Of a stretch of 35,241 nucleotides of DNA, positions 28,090-33,549 are shown in pieces (position 1 is the first letter of the stretch; every line of letters begins with the position of its first letter). Under the pieces are notes generated by a model that worked only from the letters and a program-made list of their open reading frames with translations, did not search any database and was not told the DNA's origin. This stretch comes from Lacrimispora sp. GTDB lineage: Bacteria; Bacillota; Clostridia; Lachnospirales; Lachnospiraceae. The DNA is taken from assembly GCA_029256305.1 (NCBI GenBank), contig JAQSYE010000008.1, positions 1-35,241 on the forward strand. Direction: 5' to 3'. The position numbers and the translations under genes were made by a program.

Positions 28090-28133
28090 CCTAAAAAACA
28101 GGTGACAGAACAATGGAAAGAAAGGAGTTACTC

Positions 28134-28547
28134 ATGCTTGAAAAGAATCCATCCCGGGAAGAGATAATAAATTTAATTGGTGAGGAGGCATATCTTGCAT
28201 GGGAAGCTCTCTGCAGAAAAATAGAAGAAGCATATGACATGGACCGCCTCTGGAATAGCGGCGGTAAGGCATGGAAGTACGAATACAAATACCGCAGAGG
28301 GGGGAAGACCCTCTGCGCACTTTATACCAGAGAGGGCTGTTCTGGCTTTATGGTCATACTGGGTAAAGCAGAACGGGAGAAATTTGAGCTGGAAAGGCAG
28401 AACTACTCACCCCGGATACTGGAACTGTATGATGCGTCAACCACATACCATGATGGAAAATGGATTATGTTTCCCGCTGACGATGTCTCCCTGTTTGATG
28501 ATTTTATAAATCTTCTGATGATAAAAAGGCGTCCTAACAGAAAATAG
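28134..28547 (+). CDS. DUF3788 family protein
   Basis: About 137 residues, soluble, of unknown function. Features match the DUF3788 family: an N-terminal helix with LIGEEAYLAWEALCRKIEEA, an aromatic-rich strand set (AWKYEYKYRRGGKTLCALY), and a C-terminal motif with DGKWIMFPADD followed by a helix. An ATG at 28113 is in frame, but the AAAGGAG at 28121-28127 supports the ATG at 28134. First of three closely spaced genes (18 bases to the next). Proteins of this kind often sit beside YjbR and DinB-like genes as small stress or DNA-related accessory genes, but no role is established. Confidence 0.75.
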   Translation: MLEKNPSREEIINLIGEEAYLAWEALCRKIEEAYDMDRLWNSGGKAWKYEYKYRRGGKTLCALYTREGCSGFMVILGKAEREKFELERQNYSPRILELYDASTTYHDGKWIMFPADDVSLFDDFINLLMIKRRPNRK

Positions 28548-28565
28548 AGGATTTAGGGAGGTACT

Positions 28566-28937
28566 ATGAAATATCCGTGGATTAATGCGTTTTTAAAGGA
28601 AATGAATGGAGTTACCAGTGATTTTAAAGAGGAATGGAACTGGGACAGATATATGATTGACGGTAAGATGTTTGCAGCTATCTGCAGAGATGATCAGGGG
28701 AAAGAAAAGCTGATATCCTTGAAGTTAGACCCTTTGGAAGGTGATTTTCTAAGGCAGCAGTTCAAGGACATTGTACCGGGATATTATATGAATAAGATTC
28801 ATTGGAATTCGGTAATGGCAGACGGAGAAGTGCCTGAAGATTTATTAAAAGATATGCTGGAAAAGTCTTATACTCTTATTTTCGCAAAGTTGCCTAAAAA
28901 AAGACAGAAGGAATTGTTGGACGGGAAGAACATATAG
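28566..28937 (+). CDS. MmcQ/YjbR family protein
   Basis: A 123-residue protein of the MmcQ/YjbR fold (CyaY-like, double-wing DNA-binding type). Characteristic stretches are KLISLKLDPLEGDFLRQQF, then VPGYYMNKIHWNSV and LLKDMLEKSYTLIFAKLPKK. The motif YxMNKxHWN is the family signature. GGGAGG lies before the ATG. Cellular role is unknown; DNA binding is a family-level suggestion only. It sits between the DUF3788 and DinB-like genes on one likely transcript. Confidence 0.85.
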   Translation: MKYPWINAFLKEMNGVTSDFKEEWNWDRYMIDGKMFAAICRDDQGKEKLISLKLDPLEGDFLRQQFKDIVPGYYMNKIHWNSVMADGEVPEDLLKDMLEKSYTLIFAKLPKKRQKELLDGKNI

Positions 28938-28940
28938 CAG

Positions 28941-29654
28941 ATGATTATGGGGGAGATTATGAAATATTTTGGAGAGGGATTAAGTGAAGAGCATAAGGCA
29001 CTAAATCAGGTGATCCGGAAAAAGCAAAGCACCAAAGAAGCGATAAATATTTTTCTGGACATTCATAAACAGCTGCATCGTTCGAATATAAAAGATAGGG
29101 AAGAAACTGAAACTGATCGTCTGTTTGGCGATTTAGAACCATGGGAATATGCAGTCATGCCTGGAAAAGATGATGAGACGATTGCCTGGGTGGTATGGCA
29201 TATTGCAAGAATCGAAGATTTGACCATGACTATTTTGGCTGCAAGGGAAAACCAGCTTTTTGACGAAGACTGGGGCAGAAGAATTAATTCTCCTATAAAA
29301 GATACAGGAAATGCATTAACCGATGAGCAGATCATGGCTTTCAGCAAACAGGTGAACTGCCAGGAGCTGCTTAATTACCGCAGTGCTGTCGGAGAAAGAA
29401 CCAGGGAAATCGTAAGCCGATTTACGTATGAAGATATGATACGGGATGTTAATGAGACTGACCTTATGAAGATACAAAGTGAAGGCGGGGTAACCTCTCA
29501 AAAAGATTCTGCGTGGCTGTTGGAGTTTTGGGGTACAAAAGATGTGGCGGGACTGCTGCTAATGCCGCCAACCCGGCATGTTATGCTCCACTTAAATGAC
29601 TGCTGTAAATGGAAGGAGAAAATTCGGACCAGAACGAAGTTTTTTCTTATTTAA
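28941..29654 (+). CDS. DinB-like four-helix protein
   Basis: About 237 residues, helical. Histidines in WVVWHIARIEDL and RHVMLHLNDC are placed as in the DinB/YfiT metal-binding bundle, where they hold a divalent metal. The family includes thiol-dependent transferases and many uncharacterised proteins. The start is ambiguous: ATGs at 28941, 28947 and 28959 are all in frame. The GGGGGAG at 28949-28955 is only 3 bases before the last of these, and the first is only 3 bases after the previous stop codon. No terminator is visible after the stop codon; the next recognisable signal is the promoter at 29697. Confidence 0.7.
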   Translation: MIMGEIMKYFGEGLSEEHKALNQVIRKKQSTKEAINIFLDIHKQLHRSNIKDREETETDRLFGDLEPWEYAVMPGKDDETIAWVVWHIARIEDLTMTILAARENQLFDEDWGRRINSPIKDTGNALTDEQIMAFSKQVNCQELLNYRSAVGERTREIVSRFTYEDMIRDVNETDLMKIQSEGGVTSQKDSAWLLEFWGTKDVAGLLLMPPTRHVMLHLNDCCKWKEKIRTRTKFFLI

Positions 29655-29696: not shown

Positions 29697-29725
29697 TTGA
29701 CAGAACAGAGAATTGGCAGTATTCT
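29697..29725 (+). promoter_or_regulatory. Sigma-A promoter of the ABC exporter leader
   Basis: A perfect TTGACA (29697-29702), a 17-base spacer and TATTCT (29720-29725). Transcription would begin near 29732, which puts the palindrome 29731-29747 at the start of the transcript and leaves a leader of about 325 bases before the exporter gene. Confidence 0.7.
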
Positions 29726-29730
29726 TATAA

Positions 29731-29747
29731 TTGTATATTAAATACAA
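29731..29747. promoter_or_regulatory. Palindrome at the transcription start (possible operator)
   Basis: TTGTAT-ATTAA-ATACAA is a perfect 6-bp inverted repeat with a 5-base centre. MarR-type repressors commonly use AT-rich palindromes of this sort at drug-exporter promoters, but no MarR gene is adjacent. It could also be a weak hairpin at the 5' end of the RNA. Confidence 0.35.
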
Positions 29748-29775
29748 CAAAATCTAAGAAAAGGAGGCAGGAACT

Positions 29776-29871
29776 ATGAAACGTAATCGTGGAATTAACG
29801 GAACCAATCAAATTGTCATTAATATATTGATGAATTCAGTCTGCCTCATGGAAAACTGTCTTAGCATCTAA
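29776..29871 (+). CDS. 31-residue leader peptide upstream of the ABC exporter
   Basis: A short ORF with an excellent ribosome binding site (AAGGAGG at 29761-29767, 8-base spacing) inside the exporter leader. It starts MKRNRGINGTNQIVINILMN and ends LMENCLSI. It has no run of a single regulatory amino acid such as Trp or His. Part of its ribosome binding site (GAGGCAG, 29764-29770) is exactly complementary to CTGCCTC within its own codons (29841-29847), so the RNA can fold to hide the site. Three hairpins follow. By comparison with BmrB of Bacillus subtilis, its translation may control read-through into the exporter genes. I recognise no homologue; the coding call rests on the ribosome binding site and context. 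Confidence 0.6.
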   Translation: MKRNRGINGTNQIVINILMNSVCLMENCLSI

Positions 29872-29889
29872 GGATGTCAGGGCAATTGC

Positions 29890-29914
29890 AGCTTCTTGAT
29901 CGAAGCTTCTTTTT
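29890..29914 (+). terminator. First leader hairpin with T-run
   Basis: AGCTTC (29890-29895) pairs with GAAGCT (29902-29907) around TTGATC, followed by TCTTTTTA. It is a short-stem terminator candidate only 18 bases after the leader peptide stop codon, close enough for a ribosome at the end of the ORF to influence it. Confidence 0.5.
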
Positions 29915-29924
29915 ATGAGTTAAT

Positions 29925-29955
29925 CCGCAGTCTGAATGACTGCGGTTATTTTTTT
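29925..29955 (+). terminator. Second leader hairpin, intrinsic terminator
   Basis: CCGCAGTC (29925-29932) pairs perfectly with GACTGCGG (29938-29945) around a 5-base loop, then TTATTTTTTT follows. This is a good intrinsic terminator upstream of the exporter genes. Confidence 0.8.
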
Positions 29956-29963
29956 GCTTATTT

Positions 29964-30003
29964 ACCGAAAAAGACCGCACTGCGCAGTCTTTTTCGGTTT
30001 TTT
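29964..30003 (+). terminator. Third leader hairpin, intrinsic terminator
   Basis: ACCGAAAAAGAC (29964-29975) pairs perfectly with GTCTTTTTCGGT (29987-29998), a 12-bp stem whose loop contains a further small pairing. A T-run follows to 30003. The stem lies 53 bases before the exporter start codon. Confidence 0.8.
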
Positions 30004-30055
30004 ACATATATGGAGAAAAATCATGGCGTTTGTTAAGAAAAAAGGAGGAAATAGT

Positions 30056-31783
30056 ATGAAAAATTTGTGGAAGTATGTAAGGAAATATAAGTTTCTTTAC
30101 GTTCTTGCCCTTGCAGCGATGATTATCAGCATTTTGCTTGATGCATCAGCACCCCAGATTACAAAACATATCATTGATGATGTAATTGTAGGCGGTCAGA
30201 CACAAATTCTTATGAGGCTGCTTTTGGGGCTTTTGGGAATTGGATTTGGAAGAGCGATATTTCAGTATACAAAGGAGTTTATCTTTGACTTTGTGGCAGC
30301 AAGGATCGCCTGTGGCTTAAGAAAGGATTTATTTGACCATATTCAGACGTTATCGGTGGGCTATTTTGACAGCCATAATACGGGAGAGCTGATGGCCCGG
30401 ATTAAGGATGATGCTGAACGGATCTGGAATGCATTTGGATTTGTGGGAATGCTTGTTCTGGAATGTTCCATTCACACAATCATTGTTCTTGTCTGCATGT
30501 TTCGGTTAAGTCCTGTTCTGACACTGATTCCTCTTGTCATTCTGCCGATTATCGCCTGGTATGCCTTAAAGATGGAAAAAGGGCTGGGAGAGGTTTATGA
30601 CAAGATCAGCGAGCAGACGGCAGAACTCAATACAGTTGCGCAGGAAAGTTTAGCCGGAGTCAGGACTGTTAAGGCATTTGCCAGAGAAGAATATGAAATC
30701 AGTAAATTTAAGAAGCATAACAAGCAGTATTATGACTTAAATATGAGTCAGGCAAAGCTGCTGATCCGCTACCAGCCGAACATCTCTTTCCTATCCAAGT
30801 TTCTCATGATGGCAGTCATTGTCATAGGTGGTATTCTTGTTATTATGAAAAAGATGTCCATAGGAGATTTGGGCGCATTTTCCGAATATGCAAACAATAT
30901 TATCTGGCCTATGGAAATGGTGGGCTGGTTAAGCAATGATATGGCGGCCGCATTTGCTTCTAACAAAAAGATAAAAAAGATCATGGAAGAGAGACCTGTT
31001 ATTGCAGATCCTGACAAACCGGTTCTTCCGGAGATAGTCAAAGGGGAGCTTACATTTCAGCATGTAGATTTTAAACTGGATGGAAAGGATATTTTAGACG
31101 ATATCAATTTCACCTTAAAAAAAGGAAAGACACTGGGAATTATGGGAGTCACCGGTTCGGGAAAGACGTCCATTGTCAATTTAATTGAACGTTTCTATGA
31201 TGTAACAGAGGGAGAGATTCTGCTTGACGGAATTAATATTAAAGATCTGCCACTTCCGTTGCTGAGAGGACAGATTTCGGTAGTTATGCAGGATGTATTT
31301 CTCTTTTCCGACAGCATTTCCGAGAATATAAAAACCGGAAACAAGGATGCTACCGAGTGGGAAAGCGTTCAGCAGGCAGCGATTTCTGCAGAAGCACACA
31401 GCTTCATCCAAAAACTTTCAGAACAGTATGATACGGTAATCGGTGAAAGAGGGGTTGGTTTATCCGGTGGTCAGAAGCAGAGAATCAGCATAGCCAGGGC
31501 CATTGCAAAGGAAACTCCCATCCTGATTCTTGACGACTCCACCTCTGCTCTTGACATGGAGACTGAACGAGAGATTGAATCTCATTTATCAGAGCTGAAA
31601 GACAGTTCCAAGATTGTCATTGCTCACCGGGTTTCAGCGGTGCGTCGGGCCGATGAGATTCTTATTCTGGAAGACGGAAAAATTATTGAGCGGGGAACTC
31701 ATGAGGAGCTTATGGCAAAACGGGGACAGTATTATAGAACCTATGAGGTTCAGTATGGAAAGGAGGCTGCATTATGTCAGTAA
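30056..31783 (+). CDS. Heterodimeric ABC exporter, subunit with degenerate ATP site
   Basis: A 575-residue half-transporter: six helices (about 1-320), then a nucleotide-binding domain (Walker A GVTGSGKTS, signature LSGGQKQR, Walker B ILILDDSTSALD, switch His in IAHR). Asp494 replaces the catalytic Glu after Walker B. This marks the non-catalytic-site partner in heterodimers such as BmrC and TM287. The frame is open from 29936, but AAAGGAGG 7 bases before the ATG at 30056 sets the start; upstream codons run through the third hairpin. Likely exports drugs or other amphiphiles from the cytoplasmic membrane. It overlaps the second subunit by 10 bases and is controlled by the leader. Confidence 0.93.
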   Translation: MKNLWKYVRKYKFLYVLALAAMIISILLDASAPQITKHIIDDVIVGGQTQILMRLLLGLLGIGFGRAIFQYTKEFIFDFVAARIACGLRKDLFDHIQTLSVGYFDSHNTGELMARIKDDAERIWNAFGFVGMLVLECSIHTIIVLVCMFRLSPVLTLIPLVILPIIAWYALKMEKGLGEVYDKISEQTAELNTVAQESLAGVRTVKAFAREEYEISKFKKHNKQYYDLNMSQAKLLIRYQPNISFLSKFLMMAVIVIGGILVIMKKMSIGDLGAFSEYANNIIWPMEMVGWLSNDMAAAFASNKKIKKIMEERPVIADPDKPVLPEIVKGELTFQHVDFKLDGKDILDDINFTLKKGKTLGIMGVTGSGKTSIVNLIERFYDVTEGEILLDGINIKDLPLPLLRGQISVVMQDVFLFSDSISENIKTGNKDATEWESVQQAAISAEAHSFIQKLSEQYDTVIGERGVGLSGGQKQRISIARAIAKETPILILDDSTSALDMETEREIESHLSELKDSSKIVIAHRVSAVRRADEILILEDGKIIERGTHEELMAKRGQYYRTYEVQYGKEAALCQ

Positions 31784-33549
31784 ATTCCAGCAGAATGGAT
31801 GAGGAACAGAAAGAGGTATTGAAAAAAGATACCATAATCCGTCTGTTTCGTTATCTACTAGCTTATAAAAAGAAAATTGTGCTTGTGCTGTTTATCATGG
31901 CGGGTACCATTACCATCAGTTTGCTAACGCCCCTTCTGATGGAGTATGCGGTAAATGTCTGTGTGGCGCAAAAAGATATAAAAGGACTTCTTTATGTGGG
32001 CATTGGAGCAATGGGATTATTTCTGTTGTTTTTAGTAGGTACGAAGGTTCGTATGCGTATCATGGCGGAAGTCTCAAACCGGGTGCTTTTAAACATCAGA
32101 GAGGAACTATACCAGCATATCCAGTCTTTGGGGTTTGGCTTCTTTGATAGCCGCCCCACAGGAAAGGTACTAGCAAGAATTATTGGTGATGTAAATTCAC
32201 TAAAAGATGTATTATCAGATAGTGTCACCCAGCTGATTCCGGATTTTATCACCGTTATCTGTGTACTCAGTATTATGCTGATCAAGAATTATCGTCTGGC
32301 GATGGCAGCTTTGTTAACGATTCCCATTCTGGCGGTTGGAATGTTTTTTATTCAGACTACCGTCCATAAAAGATGGCGGATATACAGAAAGAAAACATCT
32401 AATTTAAATGCCTATATTCACGAAGATTTATCAGGAATCAGGATTATTCAAAGCTATGCCGCTGAGGATGAGACAAAAGAGGTTTTTCACGATCTGGTTG
32501 ACCAGCATTACCGTTCCTTCATTGATGCAGTAGTGGTCGCAGACGCATTCGGCCCTCTTGTAGAAATAACATGGGGAATGGGTGGGTTTCTGCTTTATTT
32601 TATCGGAATTAAGGTAGTGGGGGTAGAACAGATCGGAATTGGTACGTTTCTGGCATTCTCCACATACATCGCCATGTTCTGGAGTCCCATACGTAATCTT
32701 GCCAATTTTTATAATAAATTGACCACCAATATCTCAGCTGCAGAACGAATCTTCGATATCATAGATACAGAAGTTGAAATTAAGGATGAAGAGGGTGCAG
32801 TAGAACTAGAGGCATTGAAAGGTGAAGTAAGGTTTGAGGAAGTTTCCTTTGCATATGGAGATGAACCAGACCGGCTGATCCTGGATCATGTGAGTTTTGT
32901 AGCAAAACCCGGTGAAACAATCGCTTTAGTTGGACCAACTGGCGCAGGGAAAACAACCATTGTAAATCTGATCAGCCGTTTTTATGAAGTAACTGGCGGC
33001 AGAATCTATATTGATGATCAGGAGATCAGAAGCGTTACGTTAAATAGTTTAAGAAGTCAGATGGGTATCATGACCCAGGACAATTTCCTGTTTTCCGGAA
33101 CCATTCGGGATAACATTCGTTACGGACGTTTAAATGCTACAGATGAAGAGATTGAAGTGGCAGCCAAAGCAGTTAACGCCCATGATTTTATTATGAAGCT
33201 GGAAAAGGGATACGATACGGAAATCAGCGAGAGAGGAGCCGGTCTTTCCATCGGTCAGAGGCAGCTTCTGGCATTTGCAAGAACCATGGTATCAAAGCCC
33301 GGAATTCTGATTCTTGATGAGGCAACCTCAAGCATTGATACCCATACGGAGCTGCTTGTTCAAAAGGGAATTGAAGTGCTTTTAAAGGAACGGACTTCTT
33401 TTATTATCGCACACAGATTATCAACCATCCGCAAGGCTGACCGGATCTTTGTCATTGATCAGGGAACCATTCGGGAGGCTGGAAATCATGACGAATTAAT
33501 GAAATTGGAAGGCGCTTATTATGAATTATACCAAAGTCAGTTCGCCTGA
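31774..33549 (+). CDS. Heterodimeric ABC exporter, subunit with catalytic Walker B
   Basis: A 591-residue half-transporter: six helices in the first 320 residues, then a nucleotide-binding domain with Walker A GPTGAGKTT, signature LSIGQRQL (residues 491-498, Ile in place of the second residue of GG), Walker B LILDEATSSID with catalytic Glu516, and switch His in IAHRLST. Paired with the upstream subunit, the canonical site uses this Walker A/B and the partner's LSGGQ. The degenerate site uses the partner's Asp494 and this LSIGQ. This asymmetry is typical of BmrCD, EfrAB and TM287/288 exporters. AGGAGG lies 7 bases before the ATG, inside the end of the preceding gene. Confidence 0.93.
   Translation: MSVNSSRMDEEQKEVLKKDTIIRLFRYLLAYKKKIVLVLFIMAGTITISLLTPLLMEYAVNVCVAQKDIKGLLYVGIGAMGLFLLFLVGTKVRMRIMAEVSNRVLLNIREELYQHIQSLGFGFFDSRPTGKVLARIIGDVNSLKDVLSDSVTQLIPDFITVICVLSIMLIKNYRLAMAALLTIPILAVGMFFIQTTVHKRWRIYRKKTSNLNAYIHEDLSGIRIIQSYAAEDETKEVFHDLVDQHYRSFIDAVVVADAFGPLVEITWGMGGFLLYFIGIKVVGVEQIGIGTFLAFSTYIAMFWSPIRNLANFYNKLTTNISAAERIFDIIDTEVEIKDEEGAVELEALKGEVRFEEVSFAYGDEPDRLILDHVSFVAKPGETIALVGPTGAGKTTIVNLISRFYEVTGGRIYIDDQEIRSVTLNSLRSQMGIMTQDNFLFSGTIRDNIRYGRLNATDEEIEVAAKAVNAHDFIMKLEKGYDTEISERGAGLSIGQRQLLAFARTMVSKPGILILDEATSSIDTHTELLVQKGIEVLLKERTSFIIAHRLSTIRKADRIFVIDQGTIREAGNHDELMKLEGAYYELYQSQFA

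Follow-up and report, generated by a model that had tools for sequence, protein, structure and literature searches.

A probable ribosome-mediated attenuator ahead of a heterodimeric ABC exporter operon in Lacrimispora, with competing pairings of a strand inside the leader ORF

The leader of a two-gene ABC exporter operon in Lacrimispora sp. is probably a ribosome-mediated transcription attenuator, in which the early part of a short leader ORF would act as the sensor. A strand inside this ORF (segment B) is complementary in sequence both to the ORF's own Shine-Dalgarno (SD) region (segment A) and to the 5′ arm of the terminator T2 (segment C). The first-pass annotation had proposed an attenuator of this general kind but had left open which RNA pairing prevents termination; the competing pairings are now identified as SD:B against B:terminator arm. 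Its general reading holds in that a translated-looking ORF with mutually exclusive pairings precedes a heterodimeric exporter, and the details of the sensor have changed. The window, meaning the whole stretch of DNA that was analyzed, is 35,241 nucleotides (35 kb) of draft-genome DNA, and its relevant features are as follows.

29697..29725, + strand: sigma-A-type promoter TTGACA-17-TATTCT (TTGACA 29697-29702, TATTCT 29720-29725, 17 nt between)
29764..29770, + strand: segment A, GAGGCAG, within the SD region of the leader ORF; pairs with B (anti-antiterminator)
29776..29871, + strand: leader ORF of 31 codons, MKRNRGINGTNQIVINILMNSVCLMENCLSI (ATG at 29776, stop codon ending at 29871, SD region AAAAGGAGGCAGGAACT upstream)
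29834..29847, + strand: segment B, inside the leader ORF (29841-29847 pairs with A, 29834-29844 with C)
29890..29907, + strand: first hairpin T1, -6.4 kcal/mol; hairpin partly kept in relatives, T-run not conserved
29925..29945, + strand: terminator T2, -15.0 kcal/mol with at least two flanking bases
29927..29937, + strand: segment C, T2 5′ arm and loop; antiterminator partner of B
29938..29945, + strand: segment D, T2 3′ arm; pairs with C
29941..29956, + strand: D plus U-tract strand of the D:E hairpin predicted by folding
29964..29998, + strand: terminator T3 (E:F), -17.1 kcal/mol for the inner 33 nt
29966..29979, + strand: segment E, T3 5′ arm; can pair with D
30056..31783, + strand: exporter subunit 1, 575 aa, with ABC_membrane and ABC_tran domains; Walker B ends in DD, i.e., degenerate
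31774..33549, + strand: exporter subunit 2, 591 aa; Walker B DE, signature LSIGQ

Exporter genes, leader ORF, and hairpins

Both exporter genes, which overlap (30056..31783 and 31774..33549), encode ABC exporter half-transporters. Subunit 1 shares 80-96% identity over the best segment with 16 records assigned to Lacrimispora, Clostridium, Hungatella, and unplaced MAGs, on which grounds the window is classed as Lacrimispora-type DNA (Lachnospiraceae, Clostridia). Among the best 25 NCBIfam models listed for each subunit none reached its cut-off. Bacterial two-subunit exporters of known structure gave good matches, the first of which we take to be TM287/288 and the other being YheI/YheH (BmrCD); the solved structures that resemble the subunits best are YheI for subunit 1 (314 bits) and YheH for subunit 2 (344 bits). 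A Walker B ending in DD in one subunit and DE in the other is typical of heterodimers in which one of the sites is weak, and on this reading of the motifs the operon encodes a heterodimeric ABC exporter with one degenerate ATP site. The start supported by an SD is at 30056. The frame of subunit 1 is also open back to an ATG inside T2 (29936-31783, 615 aa), where an annotator may start the gene so that it spans both terminators. The region before the leader (28113-29654) holds three small genes, namely DUF3788, a YjbR-like gene, and DinB_2 (weakly mycothiol-transferase-like).

When 61 genomes were searched at the nucleotide level, the leader was present in every one of the 25 from its own genus (own genome included) and in none of the 36 that represent other genera within the family and order. 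One genome carries two identical copies (L041 and L049, both on one contig and 2.4 kb apart), the second at a locus that contains N, and either an assembly effect or a tandem duplication is possible; L049 was counted once, which leaves 25 distinct leaders, except in the peptide and promoter tallies (hence 26). The promoter, the SD, the 31-codon ORF, the three hairpins, and the exporter start at 30056 all lie where the first-pass annotation had placed them. TTGACA precedes 26/26 congeneric leaders and TATTCT 25/26 (TATCCT in L047) at a spacing of 17 nt (18 in L029), though the single promoter match in the window leader is no excess over shuffled sequences (mean 2.6). Just 5′ of the -10 box (window 29716-29725), GG[CA]AG occurs in 25/26 leaders and GGCTG in L040, a block that looks over-conserved for a promoter alone.

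The leader ORF has 30-37 codons across the genus. Over the stretch from the ATG to beyond B, all 25 leaders keep this frame open and none keeps either of the other two open, and the ATG and most of the SD are invariant; these comparisons point to selection for translation of the ORF. A conserved block of the coding sequence, TCTGCCTCA, is read in phase 1 in 19 leaders (..VCL..) and in phase 0 in six (..SAS..), giving different peptides, and since relatives read it in two frames, it is the RNA that is kept and not the residues. A conserved leader peptide was therefore rejected as a candidate, the C-terminal VCL, ACL, ITS, and FTS being the B block in different frames. The first-pass annotation had recognized no relative of the peptide; relatives of the leader are plentiful, although the peptide itself is not conserved. 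The window peptide starts with MKRNR (29776-29790), and in some leaders K/R-x-K/R near the N-terminus might additionally cause macrolides to stall ribosomes at early codons.

The 281-nt leader folds with a z-score of -4.64, better than all 200 shuffles. All three hairpins precede T-rich DNA, and a scan for terminator-like sites found two, the third hairpin not being among them, versus 0.9 in shuffled sequences. Among the 25 genus leaders, the proportion of paired cells is 98.5% for T2 and 99.3% for T3, in which three pairs are changed on both sides within the genus, but only 67% for T1, which has no T-run in the L034-L041 group. By this comparison, the conserved terminators between the leader ORF and the exporter are two (T2 and T3), not three, and T1 was rejected as a third. 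The three tandem terminators of the first-pass annotation thus exist as hairpins (at 29890, 29925, and 29964), and the comparison of homologous leaders that it had proposed bears out T2 and T3 but not T1. An ATG or GTG follows T1 (29914-29922 and the corresponding places in relatives), and in several relatives the 3′ arm of T1 contains letters resembling AGGAG; a second, very short ORF that overlaps T2 is possible.

Competing pairings in the genus, family, and class

Segment A (GAGGCAG) pairs with B (CTGCCTC) in 25/25 genus leaders without variation, an invariance that alone proves nothing. B (ATTCAGTCTGC) with C (GCAGTCTGAAT) forms ten pairs around a T.T mismatch, and B:C is paired in 97.6% of genus cells as compared with 5.5-42% when the segments are slid. 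Covariation of B:C within the genus is not significant, the observed value being reached in 88/500 shuffles. An alternative antiterminator, pairing CTCAT of B with an ATGAG after T1, was rejected by eye and is not kept in the L042/L044 group. A covariance model spanning B to T3 (R1; stricter filters were applied to large sets) gave only the window as a significant match in its own genome (next E 0.09), and the pattern AGGAGGTA..TACCTC occurred there at two places, equal to the backward control.

Beyond the genus, sequence-based searches with the leader itself found few members. R1 recovered the leader in five of 397 family genomes (own, G016, G081, G094, and G408), belonging to 3/334 genera. 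An exact-pattern search of the family gave 12 places in 10/299 genomes (own included), and inspection of five of these loci (L051 and L057-L060) identified one true leader, L059. A search based on the exporter (E up to 1e-170) reached 70/397 family genomes in 62/334 genera, and upstream of 66 of these 70 exporters a fixed rule found a candidate SD plus ORF; one of the four exporters that gave none, L106, had almost no upstream DNA. Together with the 25/25 genus genomes, this result is in keeping with the conserved small ORF that the first-pass annotation had led one to expect in related leaders. The rule selects some doubtful ORFs (e.g., L118, L123, L137, and L139), which were kept in the counts where long enough; with seven doubtful ones left out, the remaining 59/66 candidates measure 22-48 codons (median 30).

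Support for A:B extends across the family. Among 64 candidates (the other two of the 66 were too short), 52 show complementarity that is significant at p < 0.05 when 200 dinucleotide shuffles serve as the reference, 30 of them with p no higher than 0.01, and the same test on a control, the exporter's own SD and first codons, was positive in 2/64. For covariation, B was picked solely by its match to GAGG so that the SD core stayed out of the test, which covered 58/66 leaders (eight had no GAGG or no core complement, and the first site was used in 11 multi-site cases). Flank positions +1 to +5 pair in 91, 88, 83, 57, and 29% of these 58 leaders; +1, +3, and +4 exceed every one of the 1000 partner shuffles (means 76, 67, and 37%), and +2 and +5 do not. 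The pairs are C-G or U-A at +1 and G-C or A-U at +3. On these shuffle statistics, which leave shared descent among the leaders uncontrolled, A:B covaries outside the SD core across the family.

Support for B:C, counted in 62/66 leaders (three had no terminator and one was too short), is less uniform than that for A:B by the same kinds of sequence test. The best partner of the terminator 5′ arm overlaps B in 42/62 leaders versus 13.7 by random placement, but shuffled arms (744) also reach the overlap in 43% of cases and arms taken from other leaders (734) in 46%, which weakens random placement as evidence for B:C. Against shuffles, p < 0.05 was obtained in 22/62 leaders when the B window was shuffled and in 25/62 when the arm was shuffled, about three being expected, so that B:C is singly non-significant in 37 to 40 of the 62; with the strongest terminator in place of the first, the corresponding numbers are 19 and 17. 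The window's own B:C gave p 0.015 (B shuffled) and 0.005 (arm shuffled). Compensated changes occur in L080 (CCATAG.C.CTGC with GCAG.T.CTATGG), L082 (ACACAG with CTGTGT), L089 (AACAG with CTGTT), and L078 (AGCAG with CTGCT). In addition, the type of the SD flank in A (GAGGC or GAGGT) associates with the type of the terminator arm in C (Fisher p 2e-5, in the 43/61 leaders that fit classes of our own definition).

In the class, an exporter search (E up to 1e-150) was positive in 19/391 genomes, and 14 loci were inspected without shuffles. An SD-complementary ORF was found in 7/12 loci from other families, namely 2/2 in f76, 1/1 in f86, 3/4 in f64, and 1/1 in f37, and was judged present in none of the four in f28, where two candidates resembled the tail of the upstream gene.

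Predicted ribosome sensing and alternative explanations

From these pairings, we infer an order of folding, a drug response, and a role for T3. Without a ribosome, A:B would form once B is made, leaving C for D, and T2 would stop the RNA polymerase. A freely moving ribosome would reach and cover B while C is being made, and T2 would again form. A ribosome held at the start or the first few codons would cover A and free B, so that B:C could block T2 and the exporter would be transcribed. The sequence of the leader peptide would then carry little weight, the length of the ORF and the position of B being what counts, and the likely inducers would be drugs under which ribosomes are arrested at initiation or on the first codons. 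T3 may serve as a second terminator, and since E can take the D released by B:C, one event may relieve both.

Folding was predicted for all 25 genus leaders with the ribosome footprint forced unpaired at each codon. In RNA ending in the T2 loop, the probability of B:C in 25/25 leaders is 0.71-0.96 while the P site holds any of codons 1-4, and in 25/25 it is 0.00 once the footprint spans the whole of B. It stays at 0.5 or above up to codon 16 in the window leader and only to codon 4 in L042, L044, and L045. The predicted sensor is thus the early ORF, being codons 1-4 in all 25 leaders and reaching codon 16 in that of the window. In the same RNA without a ribosome, B:C exceeds 0.5 in 13/25 leaders (0.93 in the window's) and A:B in 12/25, so in those 13 the OFF state would need A:B to form first and persist; A:B can form some 80 nt earlier than B:C. 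With T2 complete, T2 stands at 0.9 or more at equilibrium for every ribosome position in 21/25 leaders, the exceptions being L036 and L037 (0.89), L041 (0.73), and L046 (0.14). Since T2 dominates at equilibrium, antitermination would have to be decided kinetically, ahead of the transcription of D. The bmrB antiterminator is likewise the less favorable structure in the account of Reilman and co-workers, as given in the available part of that paper (PMC4191407).

A D:E cascade that relieves both terminators is plausible from the folding. D plus the U-tract can pair with the T3 5′ arm in 25/25 leaders (-10.3 to -16.2 kcal/mol, T3 itself having -14.4 to -18.6). In RNA ending just past E, D:E exceeds 0.5 in 25/25 leaders given B:C and in 1/25 with a ribosome over B; once T3 is complete, it beats D:E at equilibrium in 23/25. 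Outside the genus, the D:E match is kept by eye with changed letters in L076 (ACGGTC with GACCGT) and L059 (GTGGC with GCCGC), and L066, similarly by eye, has a different outer T3 stem but retains GCCGC. The cascade would not be general in the family, because the scan of the 66 candidates gave one terminator in 35 and two in 21 (three in two, none in eight).

Peptide-specific stalling is an unlikely alternative, under which macrolide-type drugs would stall the ribosome at a motif of the leader peptide (R-N-R, residues 3-5), like the +X+ motifs of erm leaders, with the remainder as in the proposed mechanism. K/R-x-K/R starting at residues 2-8 occurs in 14/66 family candidates, where shuffled peptides give 6.1 (at most 13 in 500 shuffles), and in 10/26 genus leaders, where they give 2.9 (at most 8); RYR (tlrB) and RLR (hflXr) are named as such motifs in the available parts of the literature, and the permissive range up to codon 16 in the window leader is compatible with stalling there. 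However, the early motif is absent from 52/66 family candidates and 16/26 genus leaders, the peptide is otherwise not conserved, and purine-rich ORF starts could by themselves raise K/R.

It is equally improbable that SD:B only throttles translation of the leader ORF, T2 and T3 acting constitutively to keep the basal level of the exporter low and no drug switch being involved. Such autoregulation would fit the much better support for A:B than for B:C and the predicted presence of T2 and T3 as equilibrium structures in nearly all ribosome states, but it leaves unexplained the significant B:C complementarity with compensated changes in over a third of 62 leaders and the tracking of C type by A type (in the 43/61 leaders and our own classes), and a leader whose peptide is not conserved but which stays open in just one frame calls for a regulatory reason. 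A riboswitch-like leader that binds a ligand or protein, in which the ORF would be incidental, is highly improbable. The RNA is strongly folded and has conserved blocks, but the SD and the pairings of A, B, C, D, and E explain the main ones, and an incidental ORF would hardly be open in 25/25 leaders against 0/25 for the other frames. Rfam gave no match at the gathering score in the window, and five weak matches (E 0.0059-0.76) all lie below their own thresholds.

The proposed attenuator with a sensor in the early ORF is accordingly preferred to these readings, and a wider generalization of it is offered tentatively, as a possibility that may well fail. Exporter leaders across the Clostridia may carry a complement to their own ribosome-binding site and thereby sense a ribosome stuck at initiation, whatever the peptide. 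The Lacrimispora clade may add a six-segment chain, A-B-C-D-E-F, in which a ribosome that is held would shift B onto C and, as a result, D onto E, so that two successive terminators dissolve, with the formation of T2 licensing T3 as a coupled fail-safe. If so, an ABC exporter would in many Clostridia be under the control of a single, simple RNA device that responds to ribosomes detained close to the translation start, through pairings and not through a stalling peptide, which would explain the silence of the exporter until needed. It would also provide a search motif for further members (an SD flank echoed in the terminator arm, with its complement inside the leader ORF) and a clean test of tandem-terminator relief by one event.

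Comparison with known attenuators

No paper on this leader class was found in the literature searched, which did not extend to subscription papers and preprints, so it may already be published. Attenuators of the trp type set pairings 1:2 and 3:4 against 2:3. The window leader follows the same pairing logic, but it has no run of amino-acid codons and its segment 1 is the ribosome-binding site; the logic is also described in PMC4191407.

The leader of bmrCD in B. subtilis resembles the present one in having a leader ORF (bmrB), a predicted anti-antiterminator, antiterminator, and terminator, and a heterodimeric multidrug ABC exporter downstream, as described in the available part of the source (PMC4191407). 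According to the same text, bmrB has 53 codons and one terminator, and its three alternative structures all lie within nt 60-162 of the ORF. The layout, which the first-pass annotation had called the same, therefore differs. In the window leader, the SD ahead of the start codon takes the part of the first partner, T2 follows the stop codon at a distance of 53 nt, two terminators are conserved, and the terminator and both alternative structures are not all inside the leader ORF, A preceding its start codon.

In the vmlR leader of B. subtilis, a start-arrested ribosome on a uORF prevents the anti-antiterminator, so that initiation is sensed and not a peptide motif, according to the accessible text (PMC9226507). 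The likeness would lie in the lack of a peptide motif and in a ribosome held at the start as the signal, which folding predicts to free B in 25/25 genus leaders, 13 of which allow B:C with no ribosome as well; the vmlR leader differs in its three-codon uORF, in an SD reported to lie unpaired in front of the hairpin, and in the ABCF gene downstream (PMC9226507). The cplR leader of Clostridioides difficile is similarly a clostridial uORF attenuator, for which, as for Lmo0919, anti-SD elements are named in a figure legend, and a change of the start codon abolishes induction, in the portion of the paper available (PMC10201436). It differs in its three-codon uORF MR[I/M], in a terminator that hides the SD of the main gene, and in its ABCF target (PMC10201436). 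The uORFs of vmlR and cplR, as described in these texts, have about three codons in contrast to the 31 of the window leader, which sets it apart from them. In E. coli, the uORF toiL responds to retapamulin, and tetracycline stalls ribosomes at its start codon, as reported in the available part of the source (PMC12121999), which gives a precedent for start-arresting drugs as the predicted inducers. The logic of the leader is that of bmrB, vmlR, and cplR, and its placement differs, in that the SD itself serves as the first strand and the shared strand lies within an ORF of about 30 codons.
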